Shown here: positions 1 to 10,113 of the stretch, piece after piece
Layout of the letters: the number at the start of each line of letters is the position of its first letter
Numbering within the stretch: the stretch's first letter is position 1
DNA from: Beggiatoa leptomitoformis
GTDB lineage: Bacteria; Pseudomonadota; Gammaproteobacteria; Beggiatoales; Beggiatoaceae
Assembly (NCBI RefSeq): GCF_001305575.3
Contig: NZ_CP012373.2
Span: forward strand, 1,612,001 to 1,676,000
DNA: 64,000 nucleotides
Direction: 5' to 3'
Translations under genes and position numbers: made by a program
The notes under the pieces: generated by a model
What the model saw: the letters and a program-made list of their open reading frames with translations, nothing else
Database searches by the model: none
What the model was told of the DNA's origin: nothing

Positions 1-1
1 G

Positions 2-1066
2 TTTAGAACGATTTTTAATAATTCGGACTTTGTTAATAAAAATGTGATTGCGAAAGAGATTGAAAAGGTCATTTTAGCGTTGACTTCTCGCTCGTTCAGT
101 CGGCATGACTTTTTGAAGAGTTTAGACCGTTTTTACATCGCAATTGAAGAAACTGCAAGTACGATTCATGCGTATGGGCGTAAACAGGACTTTTTGAATG
201 CGGTGTATGAGAACTTTTTCCAAGGTTTTGCGGTTAAAGTGGCAGACACGCATGGCATTGTGTACACCCCGCAGCCGATTGTGGATTTTATGGTGAATTC
301 GGTGCAAGAAATCTTGAAACAGGAGTTTAATCAAGATTTGTCTAGCGAAGGTGTGCATGTGCTTGACCCGTTTACGGGGACGGGGAATTTTATTCTGCGG
401 GTAATGCAGGAAGTGGACGCGCTGAATTTAGAGCGTAAATATCGTAAAGAATTGCATTGCAATGAAATTATGCTGTTGCCGTATTACATCGCGAGCATGA
501 ATATTGAACATGCGTATTATGAGCGCAGTCAGCAATATGAGCCGTTTTCTGGCATTTGTTTGGTGGATACTTTTGAGTTGTCTGAGCCAAAACAACAGGG
601 TTTTAATTTCTTTGTCCCTGAAAACACGGAGCGGGTGAATGCTCAGAAGGCTGCGCCTATTTTCGTGATTATGGGCAATCCGCCGTATAACGTGGGGCAA
701 TCGGATGAAAATGATAATAATAAGAATCGGAAATATCCACATCTTGATAGTTTAATTACTGATAATTATGCAAAGTTTTCAAAAGCAACTAATAAAAACT
801 CTTTATCGGATGCGTATGTGAAAGCTTTTATGTGGGCGACAGAACGCTTGCAAAATCAGAAAAGTGGCATTATTGCGTTTGTGACGAATAGCGGCTTTTT
901 GGATGGAATTGCGGCGGATGGAATGCGTCAGTATCTCGAAGAACATTTTGATGATATTCATATTTTCGATTTGGGTGGAAACTCGAGAAAAAGCGATGAT
1001 GATTTAGGGAATGTCTTCGGCATTCGTGTCGGGGTTGCAGTCACAATTTTGGTGAAAAAGGGGTAA
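2..1066 (+). CDS. Type ISP restriction-modification enzyme, methyltransferase part (5' end outside window, interrupted at 3' end)
   Basis: The reading frame is open from the window edge, so the N-terminus (in this family a nuclease and helicase region) lies upstream; the GTG at 44 is not needed as a start. What is visible is an N6-adenine methyltransferase domain: the SAM-binding motif DPFTGTG is coded near 365-385 and the catalytic NPPY motif near 677-688. Type ISP enzymes are single polypeptides of about 1,500 residues with nuclease, helicase, methylase and target-recognition domains. Here the frame stops at 1066, in the last strands of the methylase fold, and the target-recognition part resumes at 1673 after a toxin-antitoxin pair. 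Both parts are in the same phase. The antitoxin ATG lies 2 nt after the stop, so the cluster is probably co-translated. Whether the split enzyme still works cannot be read from sequence. Confidence 0.85.
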   Translation, partial: FRTIFNNSDFVNKNVIAKEIEKVILALTSRSFSRHDFLKSLDRFYIAIEETASTIHAYGRKQDFLNAVYENFFQGFAVKVADTHGIVYTPQPIVDFMVNSVQEILKQEFNQDLSSEGVHVLDPFTGTGNFILRVMQEVDALNLERKYRKELHCNEIMLLPYYIASMNIEHAYYERSQQYEPFSGICLVDTFELSEPKQQGFNFFVPENTERVNAQKAAPIFVIMGNPPYNVGQSDENDNNKNRKYPHLDSLITDNYAKFSKATNKNSLSDAYVKAFMWATERLQNQKSGIIAFVTNSGFLDGIAADGMRQYLEEHFDDIHIFDLGGNSRKSDDDLGNVFGIRVGVAVTILVKKG

Positions 1067-1068
1067 TT

Positions 1069-1299
1069 ATGCAAGCTTTTCAATTAACTTCACATGTCAG
1101 TCCTGAAGGGCTTTTGCAGATTCAACTGCCTGCGGATTTGGCAAATCAGGATGTTGAAATTGTATTAACGATTCAACCTAAAATAGCGCAAAATGCGGCT
1201 AAATTAAGCGAGTCGCCATTATTTGGTTTGTGGCGTGACCGCCCTGAATGTGAGGATGTGCAGGCTTTTGTAGATAATTTACGAACAGGGCGTTTTTAA
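1069..1299 (+). CDS. VapB-type antitoxin
   Basis: This 76-residue protein has the usual layout of an antitoxin paired with a PIN toxin: an N-terminal beta-rich stretch with AbrB-like character and a C-terminal toxin-binding tail of the form LFGLWRDRPE followed by FVDNLRTGRF. That tail is common in antitoxins of PIN-domain toxins, where it wraps the toxin active site. The ATG starts 2 nt after the stop of the upstream methyltransferase fragment, and the stop overlaps the toxin start as TAATG. The order antitoxin then toxin is typical, but the position inside a restriction-modification gene is not. No separate promoter is evident, so expression probably depends on the restriction gene transcript. 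Confidence 0.85.
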   Translation: MQAFQLTSHVSPEGLLQIQLPADLANQDVEIVLTIQPKIAQNAAKLSESPLFGLWRDRPECEDVQAFVDNLRTGRF

Positions 1300-1676
1300 T
1301 GTTGGTTGATACTGATGTGATTATTTGGTTTTTGCGGGGCAATCAGCTTGCAGAAGCGCGTTTAAATCAAATCCATAAACTTAGATTATCGGTGATTAGT
1401 TATATGGAATTGGTGCAAGGTATGAGAAATAAACAGGAATTACAGGCTTTGCAAAAAACAGTGCAGTTATTTCAATGGCAGATTTTGCCTGTGGATGATG
1501 CCATTTGTCAGCTTGCGGTGCGTTATGTGGAAAATTATAGTCTAAGTCATGCTATGCGTTTAGCCGATGCGTTGATTGCAGCAACGGCGGTATATTATGG
1601 GCTTATCTTGTTGAGTGCTAACGATAAACATTATTCTGTGCTTTCGGATTTGAAATTAGAAGTTTTTCGCCCATGA
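1299..1676 (+). CDS. vapC: VapC-type PIN-domain ribonuclease toxin
   Basis: This 125-residue protein is a single PIN domain. The four acidic residues expected in the metal-binding active site are all present: D4 in the MLVDTDVIIW start, E37 in the SYMELVQG helix, D90 in RLADALIAA and D109 in LSANDKHY. VapC toxins are Mg-dependent endoribonucleases that cut tRNA or rRNA and are held inactive by VapB. The start overlaps the antitoxin stop by one base, and the stop overlaps the next ATG (1673) as ATGA, so the toxin is tied by overlap to genes on both sides. Intact active-site residues argue that the toxin is functional. Confidence 0.9.
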   Translation: MLVDTDVIIWFLRGNQLAEARLNQIHKLRLSVISYMELVQGMRNKQELQALQKTVQLFQWQILPVDDAICQLAVRYVENYSLSHAMRLADALIAATAVYYGLILLSANDKHYSVLSDLKLEVFRP

Positions 1677-3004
1677 ATACTAAAAAAGCTAAAATCTATT
1701 ATTCCCGTATTCCAATGGGCTTGAATAAAGCACAAAAATTACAGTTTCTGGAAGAAAAGAAGCATATCTTTAATGTGGGCTTAGAACGGATTATTCCTGA
1801 TGCTAAAAACAATTGGCTTACTGCGGGCTTAGAAAATGATTTTGATACTTTTGCGCCCATCGGCTCAAAAGAAGGCAAAGTCAGTAAACAAACAGAAGGG
1901 GTTATTTTTAAACTGTATGGGCGAGGCATTGCAACCAGTCGTGATGTGTGGGCGTATAATTTCAATCGTGACGAACTTGCTAAAAATATGCGTTTAACGA
2001 TAGAAAACTATAATGAGCATGTTTTTAGATATTCTCGCTTAGTTGAAAAGCCTGAAATTGATAGTTTTGTGACTTATGATGATCAAAAACTGAGTTGGAG
2101 TCGAGATTTAAAATTAGACTTGAAACGCGGTAAATTTGCTGAGTTTTTACCTGAAAAAATGAGAACTTCTTTATATCGCCCTTTCACAAAAAGAGTCTTA
2201 TTTTTCGACCGTATTATGAATGAAGAAGTTTATCAATTCCCCAGCATTTTCCCAACTTCTGAAACTGAACAAGAAAATCGAGTGATTGGAATGAATGGAT
2301 TAGGTTTAGAAAAACCTTTTTCTGTTTTGATGTTTAAAATAATTCCTGATTTAAATATGATTAGCCCCGGCGCAGGCGGTACACAATGTTTCCCCTTCTA
2401 CATTTACGACGAAGCAGGCAACCATCGCCAAGAAAATATCACCGACTGGGCATTAAAAGACTATCAAGCCCACTATGCTGATGAAAATATTGGTAAATGG
2501 GATATATTCTATTATGTGTATGGCGTACTGCATCATCAAGGCTATCGCGACAAATACGCCGCCAACTTAAAGCGCGAACTCCCCAGAATTCCCAAACTCA
2601 AAGACTTCTGGAAACTCAGCCACGCAGGCAAACAGCTTGCAGAACTGCATTTAAACTACGAAACCCAAAAAGAATTCCCGCTCAAGATTGAAACCCATGA
2701 TGTTCTGGATTGGCGGGTTGAGAAAATGCGTTTTAATAAAGAAAAAACCGCGATTAAATACAACGACAGCCTGACATTAAGCGGCATTCCGCCCGAAGCA
2801 TTGGAATATAAATTGGGCAACCGTTCTGCCTTAGATTGGATTATTGACCAGTATCAAATCAGCACCGACAAGCGCAGCGGCATCAGCAACGACCCGAACA
2901 ACCTCGACGAGCCGCAATATATCGTGAAATTAATCCGCAGAATCGTGACGGTGAGTGTGGAAACGGTTGGGATGGTGAAGGAAATTAGTGCGTGTGAGTT
3001 ATAG
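1673..3004 (+). CDS. Type ISP restriction-modification enzyme, C-terminal target-recognition part (separated by VapBC)
   Basis: The 443 residues match the C-terminal half of type ISP enzymes: the last methylase strand and target-recognition domain. The family-typical ending is visible (a WRVEKMRF segment, an IPPEALEYKLGNRSALDWII segment, a KRSGISNDPNN segment). The first residues after the ATG (KKAKIYYSRIP) continue the strand broken off at 1066, and the phase is the same as the upstream fragment, so removing the toxin-antitoxin segment would leave one continuous frame. The ATG overlaps the toxin stop (ATGA). It could be translated by re-initiation and complement the upstream part in trans, or be the remnant of a broken enzyme; absence of stops over 1.3 kb favours the former or a recent event. 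Confidence 0.85.
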   Translation: MNTKKAKIYYSRIPMGLNKAQKLQFLEEKKHIFNVGLERIIPDAKNNWLTAGLENDFDTFAPIGSKEGKVSKQTEGVIFKLYGRGIATSRDVWAYNFNRDELAKNMRLTIENYNEHVFRYSRLVEKPEIDSFVTYDDQKLSWSRDLKLDLKRGKFAEFLPEKMRTSLYRPFTKRVLFFDRIMNEEVYQFPSIFPTSETEQENRVIGMNGLGLEKPFSVLMFKIIPDLNMISPGAGGTQCFPFYIYDEAGNHRQENITDWALKDYQAHYADENIGKWDIFYYVYGVLHHQGYRDKYAANLKRELPRIPKLKDFWKLSHAGKQLAELHLNYETQKEFPLKIETHDVLDWRVEKMRFNKEKTAIKYNDSLTLSGIPPEALEYKLGNRSALDWIIDQYQISTDKRSGISNDPNNLDEPQYIVKLIRRIVTVSVETVGMVKEISACEL

Positions 3005-3345
3005 GTTGCGCGCTTACTCCCCCTTTGAAAAAGGAGGCTGGGGGGATTTAAGCTAGAGGTTAAGAATTTGCCAAAAGTTCCAAAACTTTCCTCGTTCCCA
3101 CGCTCCAGCGTGGGAATGCAGATTGCGTCGCTCCAGCGGCGCGTGGTACAAGTTAAAAAACACTGAGATTAGTATGCTCGTTACCAAGTTTCACTTGGTA
3201 ATACCTACTCACCAAGTTCTGCTTGGCTTGTACTTGAACGCATCAATCTTAAGTCTGCTTGTATTCGGCAAGCAGAGCTTGGTAACGAGCAATTCATCGA
3301 TTTAGGCAGTAAATTATCACAACATTTTCTAAGTCAGACAATCTT
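3005..3345. repeat. Cluster of palindromic repeats in an otherwise gene-free spacer
   Basis: No gene is supported here. Three repeat types sit in a row. A palindrome starting CTCGTTCCCACGCT lies at 3091-3118 and is seen again at 43575-43604. A second short palindrome (GCGTCGCT / AGCGGCGC) follows at about 3125-3142. A third element at 3176-3290 is bounded by a perfect 13-bp inverted repeat (GCTCGTTACCAAG / CTTGGTAACGAGC) and contains further AACCAAGTT/ACTTGGT-type hairpins. A fragment with CCCCCTTTGAAAAAGG at about 3019-3034 also looks like a dispersed repeat. They resemble REP or MITE-like non-coding elements. Confidence 0.75.
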
Positions 3346-6440: not shown

Positions 6441-6655
6441 CCTAAGTTAAGTTATTTGCTTTATTCTGTTAGTTTATTAACAAAATAGCGTGTTTTAATA
6501 CAAATTGTCTGTCTTCACACTTAAAAGGTAAAAAACTAAATAATTGATTATTTAATTAAAAATAACCTATTTTAGGGTTGGTATTATTGATGCACTGCAC
6601 TAGAAATATCTAATTAAGTTATTTCGCAGCAACAATAATTGTAAGGGGTTATAAC

Positions 6656-8119
6656 ATGAAGTTATTTCGTTTTAGTGGTGGTATTCATCCAGAGGGACGT
6701 AAACACGCCACCACGGATAAACCAATTCAAAAAATGCCCATGCCTCATCGGCTTTATGTCCCCTTACAACAACATGTTGGCGCACCCGCAGAACCACAGG
6801 TAAAAGTCGGCGAACATGTCCTAAAAGGACAACTGCTGGCACATAGTCAAGGGATGATTTCAGCCCCTGTACATTCTCCAACCTCTGGAATTATCGTAGA
6901 AATTGGCGATTTTACCGCACCTCATCCATCAGGATTACCTGTTAGAACTATCATTATCGAATCGGATGGTGAAGACCGTTGGATGACAGATTTACACCCA
7001 GCAGAAGACCCTTTACGAATGCCGCCTGATGAAGTGGCCGCACGTGTTGGAATGGCGGGCATTGTTGGAATGGGAGGGGCGACCTTCCCCGCATCAGTTA
7101 AGCTCAAACAAAGCCTGAAAAATAAAGTACATACTTTTATTGTGAATGGAAGCGAGTGTGAGCCTTATCTGACTTGTGACGACCGTCTAATGCAGGAGCG
7201 AGCAGAACAACTGATTGATGGCACAAGAATTGTGCTACATGCAGCACAAGTTGCACAAGCCTATATAGCGGTTGAAGACAATAAGCCTGCCGCGATTGAG
7301 GCATTAACAAAAGCATGTCGTCATATTACAACGATTAAAGTCGTTGCCGTGCCGTCATTGTATCCAATGGGGTCAGCACAGCATTTAATTAAAACCGTTA
7401 CAGGACAAGAAGTTCCCGCAGATGGGCGCAGTTCAGACATTGGCTTACTGGTGCATAACGTCGGTACAGTTTATGCCATTCATCGCGCCTTGCGTCATGG
7501 AGAACCCTTGATTTCGCGGGTTATTACCGTTGGCGGTGGCGCGGTAACAGAACCTATCAATGTAGAAGTCCCTATCGGTGCGTTAGTATCTGATGTATTA
7601 GCATTTTGTGGTGGTTTAAAACAATCACCTGCGCGTTTATTGGTAGGTGGCCCGATGATGGGGCAGATTTTACCAACAACCGCAACGCCTGTTGTTAAAG
7701 GCACTAATGGCATTGTGGCATTAACGGCTGAAGAAATTACCCAAGAACAAACCATGCCTTGTATCCGTTGTGGTAGTTGTGTAACCGCATGTCCTTGTGG
7801 TTTACTGCCTTTACAGATGGCTGCATTTTCTAAAGCAGGCAATTTTGATAAGGTTGATGAGTTGGGCTTAGTTGATTGTATTAGTTGCGGTAGTTGCTCT
7901 TATGTTTGCCCGTCACATATTCCCTTAGTGCATTATTTTAATTATGCAAAAGGCGAATTATTAGCCCGCGAATTGCAAAAGCACAAGGCGCAAGAACATC
8001 GTCGTTTAGTTGATCAGCGTAAAGAGCGTTTAGACAGAGAAATTGCCGCAAAAGCCGCTGCGGCTGCTAAACGTAAAGCAGATGCAGAGAAGAAAAAGAA
8101 AGTCGTAACAGAAGCCTAA
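6656..8119 (+). CDS. rnfC: RnfC/RsxC-like electron transport complex subunit
   Basis: The 487-residue protein has the RnfC layout: an N-terminal barrel-sandwich segment, a central NADH-dehydrogenase 51 kDa-like region containing GMGGATFP and a VNGSECEPYLTCD segment, then two 4Fe-4S motifs with CIRCGSCVTACP near residue 371 and CISCGSCSYVCP near residue 406, and an Ala/Lys-rich tail that is probably coiled coil. RnfC is the NADH-oxidising peripheral subunit of the Rnf/Rsx membrane complex that couples NADH and ferredoxin redox to ion movement. Unusually, no rnfA, B, D, G or E is adjacent: hemF lies upstream and a convergent gene downstream. A good RBS (AAGGGG) precedes the ATG. The remaining subunits must be elsewhere if the complex exists. 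Confidence 0.9.
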   Translation: MKLFRFSGGIHPEGRKHATTDKPIQKMPMPHRLYVPLQQHVGAPAEPQVKVGEHVLKGQLLAHSQGMISAPVHSPTSGIIVEIGDFTAPHPSGLPVRTIIIESDGEDRWMTDLHPAEDPLRMPPDEVAARVGMAGIVGMGGATFPASVKLKQSLKNKVHTFIVNGSECEPYLTCDDRLMQERAEQLIDGTRIVLHAAQVAQAYIAVEDNKPAAIEALTKACRHITTIKVVAVPSLYPMGSAQHLIKTVTGQEVPADGRSSDIGLLVHNVGTVYAIHRALRHGEPLISRVITVGGGAVTEPINVEVPIGALVSDVLAFCGGLKQSPARLLVGGPMMGQILPTTATPVVKGTNGIVALTAEEITQEQTMPCIRCGSCVTACPCGLLPLQMAAFSKAGNFDKVDELGLVDCISCGSCSYVCPSHIPLVHYFNYAKGELLARELQKHKAQEHRRLVDQRKERLDREIAAKAAAAAKRKADAEKKKKVVTEA

Positions 8120-8125
8120 CGGCTA

Positions 8126-8150
8126 CGGGTGCGAATTTTATTCGCACCCG
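8126..8150 (+). terminator. Terminator-like hairpin after rnfC
   Basis: A perfect 10-bp stem (CGGGTGCGAA / TTCGCACCCG) with a 5-nt loop lies just after the rnfC stop, between convergent genes. The following T-tract is weak, so it may act bidirectionally or as an mRNA 3'-end stabiliser. Confidence 0.7.
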
Positions 8151-8225
8151 ATTGATGTTTGTCTGAATTAAAACTAGCTGAATTTCTGGCATTAACAGCA
8201 AACACTTTTTAGGACTGCCTAGAAT

Positions 8226-9089
8226 TTATTCTGCTTTAACATCGGAAACATTCAAGGTTTTATATGTCAATACACCACGTTGCTCGGTGTTTAACAACTT
8301 CCCCGTTATGATTAGGGGTTTTCCTAAAAAATCATCCTTTTGTTCATCTAGGCGTTTGGGGTATTGTTTAAACAGGTAAATGGTGTTTGCTTCGGTTGTT
8401 GGAATCAGTGAAAAGCCGTCGGTATCGAATTCTAATTCGCCCCTAATGGTTAAGCCTTTATTCTCTGTAGATTTATCGGCGGATGTTTTCGTATCGGTCT
8501 CTTTTTTAGAATTGTTCGACGGTTTTTCGTTGCCATCAGATGAGGAATTGGCAGTTTTATTCGGTGGGTAGTCGCGTAGGTAGTTGCGAATATCCGCAAA
8601 GGTTTTATAACGGCTAATGGCTTTGCTGCTAACGCTGTCTAATTGCCAACCTGTTGCCTGACTGGTAAATAATACGTTGTTATAGTTGGTATTTCCAACT
8701 TTGGTACGGCATTGACTCACCATAATAATATCGGTTTGCCCATCATTATTTACCTCTTCAAATCCTACGGCTAGTAAATTACAACCTGCATTAAACGCAT
8801 CTGTATTGGAAATATCAAAGCGATGTAATAGCTTGCCTTCGCTGGTTGTTAGTAAAAAGTAGGTTTTTTCTTTTTTCGGTTCACGAACAGTTAAAAAGCA
8901 GGTATCACCCAATAATGGTAAGGTTAAAGAAAAAGTTTGTTCTTTAACAAGTTGTGTTCCTGTGTAAATGGGTTCAAATACATCACTGCTTGTATCTCGA
9001 CACTGTTGGTGGTCTTTATTAACATAAGCTGCATTTGCAATAGGCGTAATGAAAAAAGACAAAATAATGAGTGTAAAAAATTGTTTCAT
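8226..9089 (-). CDS. Secreted hypothetical protein with a VCBS-like motif
   Basis: I chose the ATG at 9089 because it places a clean signal peptide (MKQFFTLIILSFFITPIANA) at the N-terminus; the frame is open 10 codons further. The mature protein of about 265 residues contains an FG-GAP/VCBS-like segment (EEVNNDGQTDIIMV) of the kind found in beta-propeller blades, a Ser/Lys/Asn-rich low-complexity linker around the middle, and a C-terminal domain that I do not recognise. Function is unknown. It lies 60 bp downstream of a lipoprotein gene on the same strand, so both may form one envelope operon. Confidence 0.7.
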   Translation of the reverse strand: MKQFFTLIILSFFITPIANAAYVNKDHQQCRDTSSDVFEPIYTGTQLVKEQTFSLTLPLLGDTCFLTVREPKKEKTYFLLTTSEGKLLHRFDISNTDAFNAGCNLLAVGFEEVNNDGQTDIIMVSQCRTKVGNTNYNNVLFTSQATGWQLDSVSSKAISRYKTFADIRNYLRDYPPNKTANSSSDGNEKPSNNSKKETDTKTSADKSTENKGLTIRGELEFDTDGFSLIPTTEANTIYLFKQYPKRLDEQKDDFLGKPLIITGKLLNTEQRGVLTYKTLNVSDVKAE

Positions 9090-9149
9090 AAATAATTTTT
9101 CCCTTTCTAAAAAAGGCATAAAGACATTGAAGTGTCTTTATGCATCGGT

Positions 9150-9716
9150 TTAATCAAATACGGAAAGTACCCGTCCAACATCTTGTAATGGTCCTAATGG
9201 GTTTTTGCGATCTTCGTATTCTAAAATGTGTGGTTCGCCACTCCAGAGTTTATAAACGACTAAATCTTCTTGTAATACAAGGAGTGCTTGAAATCGCCAG
9301 CCTGTAATTTTGGTTTGACGACGAAAATTTAGTACGTCTAATATCACGTTGCCATAACGTTTGCTATTGCGTTCTATCGGAATCATTTCATAGCCTTGAC
9401 ATTTTTCTTTCATTGCTAGGCAAGACCGAATTGCGTCGGGTAAGTCTGCAAGCGTAATGGAGGAATTGGGAATAAAGCGTTGAACTAAATCCAAATAGTT
9501 AAGTAACTTGACGTTTGGCGTAACAAAAGGCTCTATGCCTAGTTTTTTTAGCTTATCGACAGTCGTTACCATGGGTTCTACATTATCAAAGCTGATTTTA
9601 ACTTCATCAAATGATTGCCAAGGCGTTTGAATGGTCGTGTTTACTTCGGGAAGTAATCCGCTACATCCCGCCAACCAAAATATAATGCTGATTATCAATA
9701 ATTTTTTTAATAGCAT
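9150..9716 (-). CDS. Hypothetical lipoprotein
   Basis: A 188-residue protein with a lipoprotein signal (hydrophobic IISIIFWLAGC, predicted lipidated Cys at 18) and no recognised domain. The mature part mentions a conserved-looking DLVQRFIPNSSITLADLPDAIR region and a C-terminal VVYKLWSGEPHI segment. The residue after Cys is Ser, which under the usual rule favours the outer membrane. It precedes the secreted protein gene at 8226-9089 and probably shares its promoter. Function not known. Confidence 0.75.
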   Translation of the reverse strand: MLLKKLLIISIIFWLAGCSGLLPEVNTTIQTPWQSFDEVKISFDNVEPMVTTVDKLKKLGIEPFVTPNVKLLNYLDLVQRFIPNSSITLADLPDAIRSCLAMKEKCQGYEMIPIERNSKRYGNVILDVLNFRRQTKITGWRFQALLVLQEDLVVYKLWSGEPHILEYEDRKNPLGPLQDVGRVLSVFD

Positions 9717-10113
9717 TGTTTGTGCGTCCTAAGATATTTTCTAAATGAACCATACAGCAAATAATATACCTTTTTTGCTTATCTTTTCGTATCATACCGC
9801 ACAGAATGTCTCTTATGTGTTGAAAAATATGCGTGTGTAGGTATTTGGCTGAGTAGTAAGGGGTAAGGCTCAGTAAGAAAGGAAAGTGAATATAATCCGT
9901 TTGGATAATTTTTAGCGGGGGAAACGTGGTAATAATTAAGATGGTTGTAAAAAAGAGGTCTATTGTCTTTTAATGAGGGGTGTCTCAGTCAGAGCCTATC
10001 GATACAATTGCATGAGTTGTAATCATTTTTAAGCAATAGATGGTTTTGTGCATTCTGATTGAGACAGGTTTTTATTTTTAGTTTTAAAACAAATGGATGG
10101 AAAAATTTTGTAT
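9717..10113. other. Gene-free spacer with a long inverted repeat
   Basis: No gene is supported in these roughly 400 bp. The right part holds an inverted repeat TGTCTCAGTCAGA (9981-9993) and TCTGATTGAGACA (10054-10066), 12 of 13 positions pairing, with a smaller hairpin (ACAA..TTGT, about 10004-10020) inside and a T-rich run (10069-10079) after it. It could be a small mobile repeat, a structured RNA or a 3' structure for the Sir2 gene. Confidence 0.5.

Follow-up and report, generated by a model that had tools for sequence, protein, structure and literature searches.

What is a complete toxin–antitoxin (TA) pair doing in the middle of a restriction enzyme? In the window, that is, the whole 64,000-nt stretch of Beggiatoa leptomitoformis DNA analysed here, a restriction–modification (RM) gene is interrupted by an intact vapBC pair at the junction of its methylase and target-recognition parts, and all of these genes form one operon (Table 1). 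An earlier note on this DNA had described the pair as lying between the enzyme parts with junctions of 2 nt, TAATG and ATGA, and gene calls and coordinates agree: the N-terminal part of the enzyme ends with a TAA stop (1064-1066) and a 2-nt gap before vapB, vapB and vapC overlap as TAATG (1297-1301), and the gene for the specificity (S) subunit has an ATG of its own, which overlaps the vapC stop as ATGA. The same note had let the enzyme begin at position 44. This start is an artefact, since the N-terminal part is cut by the window edge; the real one lies 683 nt upstream of the window (L004:11318) and yields a full product of 582 aa. An assembly or sequencing artefact, in favour of which nothing was found, has a negligible probability: the window belongs to a complete genome assembled as one 4.27-Mb contig, and relatives with independent genomes show the same arrangement, so that the assembly error considered in the earlier note is very unlikely.

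Table 1. Features of the interrupted RM operon in the window, and TA cassettes found in the slot of related loci
Feature	Coordinates	Strand	Description
RM subunit, 3′ part	1-1066	+	354 of 582 codons; coupler end and N6-adenine methyltransferase
vapB antitoxin, 76 aa	1069-1299	+	84% identical orthologue at the same site in G025 (L040)
vapC toxin, PIN-domain RNase, 125 aa	1299-1676	+	PF01850, E = 2.4e-16
Specificity (S) subunit, target-recognition half, 443 aa	1673-3004	+	PF18135 Type_ISP_C, E = 3.6e-104
Slot (insert in place of a ~7-residue loop)	1064-1676	+	profile 1163/1166; DrdV 577/585
G024 slot			related antitoxin and different PIN toxin
G041 slot, first copy			VapB-PIN
G041 slot, second copy			HigA-like gene and DUF2971
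G007 slot			UPF0175-PIN
Further cassettes (GTDB scan, Cyanobacteriota and Chloroflexota surveys)			RelB-RelE, DUF433-RelE, ParDE, HicBA, DUF433-DUF5615, DUF2281-PIN, DUF4258-MqsA

The interrupted enzyme and its cassette

Which enzyme is interrupted? In Pfam searches, the first part matches ISP_coupler and N6_Mtase, vapC matches PIN, and the last part matches Type_ISP_C. The N-terminal part carries methyltransferase motifs I (DPFTGTGNF) and IV (GNPPY) and, in its pre-window portion, a PD-ExK nuclease motif (D...EAK; DG...WEAKD), recognised as a motif without a Pfam name. The closest solved protein (PDB 7lo5/7lvv, 1,029 aa) is DrdV, a type IIL enzyme (PMC11842806). To this protein the N half aligns over residues 24-577 and the C half over 585-1026, and on the PADLOC profile PDLC03597 the two parts map to 799-1163 and 1166-1639, near-contiguous stretches that leave nothing missing at the cut. 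The uninterrupted state, with which the earlier note had proposed a comparison, is defined by fused relatives and by an unsplit 1,030-aa paralogue in the same genome (N halves ~73% identical, C halves ~60%). On plasmids, the C half has its best matches at 37-40% identity, mostly in proteins annotated as type ISP enzymes.

Type ISP was also the label chosen in the earlier note, and it stands in part: coupler, MTase and target-recognition domain (TRD) are ISP-like, and the C-terminal specificity domain (PF18135) is present. However, the alignment with LlaBIII begins only at residue 743, which means that the ISP translocase is absent, and no helicase match was found in the 582-aa N half; nor is the enzyme a single polypeptide. 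The definition of type ISP (PMC3874165) excludes it despite the common coupler, MTase and TRD, and we rejected its membership on account of the missing translocase. Spread over two chains, it instead comprises nuclease, coupler, gamma-MTase and TRD in ~1,030 aa without a translocase, as type IIL/IIG enzymes do. Judged from its sequence, it is a DrdV-like type IIL/IIG enzyme, normally made as one chain of ~1,030 aa.

On one side of the slot lies the final beta-strand of the MTase, on the other the strand with which the S half begins. In an AlphaFold model of the fused paralogue (mean pLDDT 75.7; 81-88 near the junction), the cut falls in a predicted loop, a hairpin turn at 584-590, with strands 575-583 and 591-596 on either side. 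A separate S chain could thus dock by returning its first strand, probably to a place beside the last MTase strand. Type IIB enzymes offer a precedent, with both RM+S and single-chain RMS forms in nature and with BsaXI being active after mixing of RM and S (PMC11997821).

The inserted pair, whose vapC scores below the curated cut-off of the VapC models, is by its sequence a genuine VapBC. Its PIN toxin has the complete acidic quartet (D4, E37, D90 and D109), in agreement with the earlier note, and directly upstream lies the overlapping cognate antitoxin gene, whose product has a C-terminal motif (SPLFGLWRD...DVQAFVDNLRTGRF) that recurs in the antitoxins of VapC relatives encoded as free-standing pairs. 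A search for plasmid DNA related to the vapBC insert found none. In G025 (L040:7071-8589), the VapB orthologue sits at the slot without its VapC, and next in line are a 72-aa gene and one for a RhuM-Fic protein. A further antitoxin (L043, oriented 7312-7548) resembles that of the window (1069-1299) in its N-terminal part; the C-terminal, toxin-binding parts of the two differ, each being matched to a different PIN toxin, and it looks as if toxin and binding tail had been swapped together.

Two features of the surroundings may be recorded here. A little ahead of the RM gene, at L004:10819-11196 (~800-1180 nt upstream of the window), lies what looks, from sequence motifs only, like an IS630-type transposase remnant, and downstream of the operon (window 3070-3300) there are inverted-repeat-like 'cccacgctccagcgtggga' units, possibly a dispersed repeat.

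Recurrence of the split and contents of the slot

Is the window an isolated case? Among 164 loci with both sides of the junction visible (duplicates removed; a non-random sample of relatives of the window enzyme, partly MAG contigs, so that percentages are only indicative), 139 are fused, 23 are split with an insert and 2 have frameshifts; none is split with an empty slot. L110 and L222, taken up as split candidates, were rejected as junction frameshifts. The split cases span Pseudomonadota, Cyanobacteriota and Chloroflexota, with junction inserts of 0.46-2 kb. All but one of the 23 inserts are not IS elements, and ~18 of these 22 carry TA or TA-like genes, assigned by Pfam/NCBIfam profile or close homology (assignments are weaker for L046, where PIN falls below the cut-off, and for L071, L091 and L208, made by homology). 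Four inserts are without a recognised TA: L045 (an unclear case), L074 (GxxExxY nuclease), L125, L216 (HNH). In L210, one of the 23, the insert lies 30 aa into the S half and carries a transposase-like ORF on the opposite strand, the first 50 aa of which gave no Pfam match.

The TA families in the slot are many and unrelated, including VapBC, UPF0175-PIN, RelE, ParDE, HicAB, DUF433-DUF5615 and RhuM-Fic (see also Table 1). As a rough comparison, ~6 of 68 flanking ORFs are TA-like (Fisher p about 2e-10 versus the slot). Every slot TA gene is co-directional with the enzyme, and often the final slot gene runs 4 or 10 nt into the S gene. In the search for family relatives, several second halves turned up as free-standing ORFs of ~440 aa with the same start residue.

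The earlier note had asked for a second case of VapBC in the same gene position and had listed the lack of any other among the signs of a one-off broken gene. At least 22 other loci are split there, and the premise of a single case clearly fails. Since the same spot is split in several phyla and the TA pairs differ, we are dealing with a repeated, maintained design rather than with one broken gene.

Away from the junction, only six inserts were seen, three each in N and C halves; they hold transposases in L219, L216 and L225 and an in-frame DUF559 in L216, while those of L110 and L204 are small or without identified content. The DUF559-like protein of L216 (9401-11302) lies inside the target-recognition half with repeated PSPPAPLPQERGAR peptides on its flanks, and the N half of this locus is also broken, by a transposase. 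Specificity halves were in two cases seen with no RM half nearby: one is preceded by AbiEi-AbiEii (G019; L042, oriented 6478-9296), the other is that of G021 (L041, oriented 7634-8944). These lone halves are possibly mobile TA+S units or orphan S genes.

Cassette exchange and selection on the two halves

How do the cassettes come and go? A FastTree tree built from the MTase region shows at least 12 changes between split and fused states, their direction being unpolarised, and an all-split clade of 8 cyanobacterial sequences with five different TA types. Carriers of the split form include Limnofasciculus, Pseudanabaena and Cuspidothrix. L077 and L088 have N halves that are 95% identical at the DNA level up to the stop, and S genes that are homologous from the start codon; the cassettes in between differ. 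The same is true of L086 and L088 (N 88%). By these comparisons, near-identical enzymes carry different TA pairs and the slot cassettes are exchangeable. In L208 (reverse strand; oriented 9670-9848) and L071 (6636-6808), the last 173 bp of the N gene are present a second time, beside HicB/ParD-type genes; this duplicate looks like a trace of cassette exchange in which the gene end served for homologous recombination.

The earlier note had pointed out short A-rich matches on the two sides of the insert. These AAAAAG flanks are due to chance: the longest string common to both ends is 6 nt, and shuffled sequences average 5.4. At the insert ends of the 19 loci tested, no target-site duplication was found; both candidates, duplication and A-rich repeats, were thus set aside as being at chance level. 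That the two enzyme parts share a phase is correct, yet it carries no information, since this holds for only 8 of the 19 split loci that could be compared.

Across split pairs, dN/dS (NG86) ranges from 0.01 to 0.16 for the N half and from 0.13 to 0.54 for the S half, higher values being expected for a diversifying TRD. For the window genome (G000) and G025, which have VapB in common at the site, it amounts to 0.145 for N, 0.144 for VapB and 0.267 for S. Purifying selection while split is clearest in pairs that share their TA (L086/L091/L077, L004/L040 and L209/L215), and the low dN/dS could in part be older than some insertions. PD-ExK, motif I and motif IV are intact in the window copy and in most other complete split copies; in the divergent L046, L209 and L215, some of the motifs escaped the strict search patterns. 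Damaged split copies exist as well, namely L206 and L207 with truncated N genes, L216 with an IS, L077 with a stop and L208 with a broken TA. The split state is therefore not universally functional, and slots are not always maintained.

These values bear on whether the window copy itself could be a recent, one-off insertion that broke the enzyme, as the earlier note had allowed. This particular vapBC pair was seen complete at the site only here, and the unsplit paralogue in the genome could cover the function of a broken copy. Yet the recurrent split at the junction, the intactness of both window halves, and the VapB orthologue at the same site in G025, with its low dN/dS alongside those of the flanking halves, make a one-off break most improbable. 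For the family, recurrence and selection reject such an insertion; for the window copy, they make it unlikely. Reassembly of the enzyme from two chains, also proposed in the earlier note, finds indirect sequence support in the recurrence at the same loop, the intact motifs and the purifying selection when split. The two chains would re-associate and work as RM enzyme and methylase. We thus probably see a natural two-gene RM + S form of a DrdV-like enzyme, in which the loop between MTase and specificity parts is an exchangeable slot for coupled TA pairs.

Role of the slot and known systems

What does the TA pair do for its host operon? With both TA genes placed within the operon, antitoxin supply would be tied to the RM genes, and loss or silencing of these genes from either side might also remove it. 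Less certainly than the re-association of the chains, the TA pair may then serve the RM operon as a layer of addiction or back-up. Extended to the family, this would make the MTase/specificity loop of DrdV-like enzymes a dedicated TA slot, convergently used: single-chain enzymes would repeatedly turn into RM-[TA]-S, the embedded TA making the operon hard to lose or silence, with cassettes exchanged and the enzyme kept. We advance this extended reading tentatively, at somewhat less than even chances.

The data are consistent with addiction, and a passive account fits almost as well. TA modules are known to be selfish and mobile (PMC2701414). They may land everywhere, with the inter-domain loop as the only place that tolerates a stop and a restart, and persist there by their own addiction without any functional tie to restriction. 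That the TA families in the slot are mutually unrelated, that the predicted loop looks permissive, and that the slot also holds non-TA cargo (GxxExxY, HNH, DUF559, XisHI) all speak for such a safe harbour, which stays viable because a TA pair would also keep itself in the slot. Against it stand the strong over-representation of TA in the slot, the invariable co-direction with the enzyme and overlaps typical of coupled operons; moreover, no empty-slot split was seen, and a whole clade stays filled while the TA family changes. A purely passive slot is accordingly quite conceivable, without being the outcome we would expect. The enrichment of TA genes, their shared direction with the enzyme and the failure to find an empty slot favour a function; the few slots with non-TA cargo favour some passive component.

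Could the enzyme itself hold the toxin in check? In a guard of the PrrC kind, RM subunits or their activity would restrain the toxin, and phage anti-restriction proteins or lost methylation would release it, leading to abortive infection. Precedents exist in PrrC of EcoprrI (PMC3874165) and in DarTG2 within a type I RM operon (PMC12255303). Each slot TA, however, has an antitoxin gene of its own, and the toxins belong to many unrelated folds, which makes a shared physical restraint by the enzyme unlikely, and we regard a guard of this kind as doubtful.

TA genes adjoining or inside RM operons are already known, PrrC (PMC3874165) and DarTG2 (PMC12255303) being examples. In the open-licence PMC papers, we found neither TA within type ISP, IIG or IIL genes nor TA repeatedly splitting one catalytic polypeptide at one loop, with the family swapped and the enzyme under selection. 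The changes of state on the tree, 12 or more, represent natural replicates for asking whether TA modules guard other defence systems, and the slots offer natural split sites for the engineering of type IIL enzymes. The loci also suggest a route by which single-chain enzymes give rise to two-gene RM+S systems.

Compared to known systems, the window enzyme equals DrdV (7lo5/7lvv) in domain order and length, but DrdV is one chain, whereas here two genes enclose a TA cassette. With the type ISP enzymes LlaBIII and LlaGI it shares a homologous coupler, gamma-MTase and C-terminal specificity domain (PF22240, PF18135); these enzymes have an ATP-dependent translocase that is absent here, and ISP enzymes are by definition single polypeptides. 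BsaXI, a type IIB RM+S enzyme, likewise combines an RM chain with a separate specificity chain (PMC11997821), yet its S has two TRDs, while the window S has one, and its gene is separated from the RM gene by a TA operon. EcoprrI is reminiscent of the window in that its RM operon embeds a toxin gene (PMC3874165). PrrC, however, is a single latent nuclease in a multi-subunit type I operon, and slots of the window type hold complete TA pairs of many families within a normally single gene. CreTA guards of CRISPR-Cas similarly link an addiction module to a defence operon (PMC9458426), but are RNA-based and repressed by Cascade; for the window TA, any coupling of that sort would be conjectural. DarTG2 in the type I RM operon of the RptR island is likewise a complete TA pair between RM genes at a site proposed as a recombination hotspot (PMC12255303). 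There, the pair lies between hsdS and hsdR, which are separate genes already; in loci of the window type, the TA splits a single-chain enzyme.
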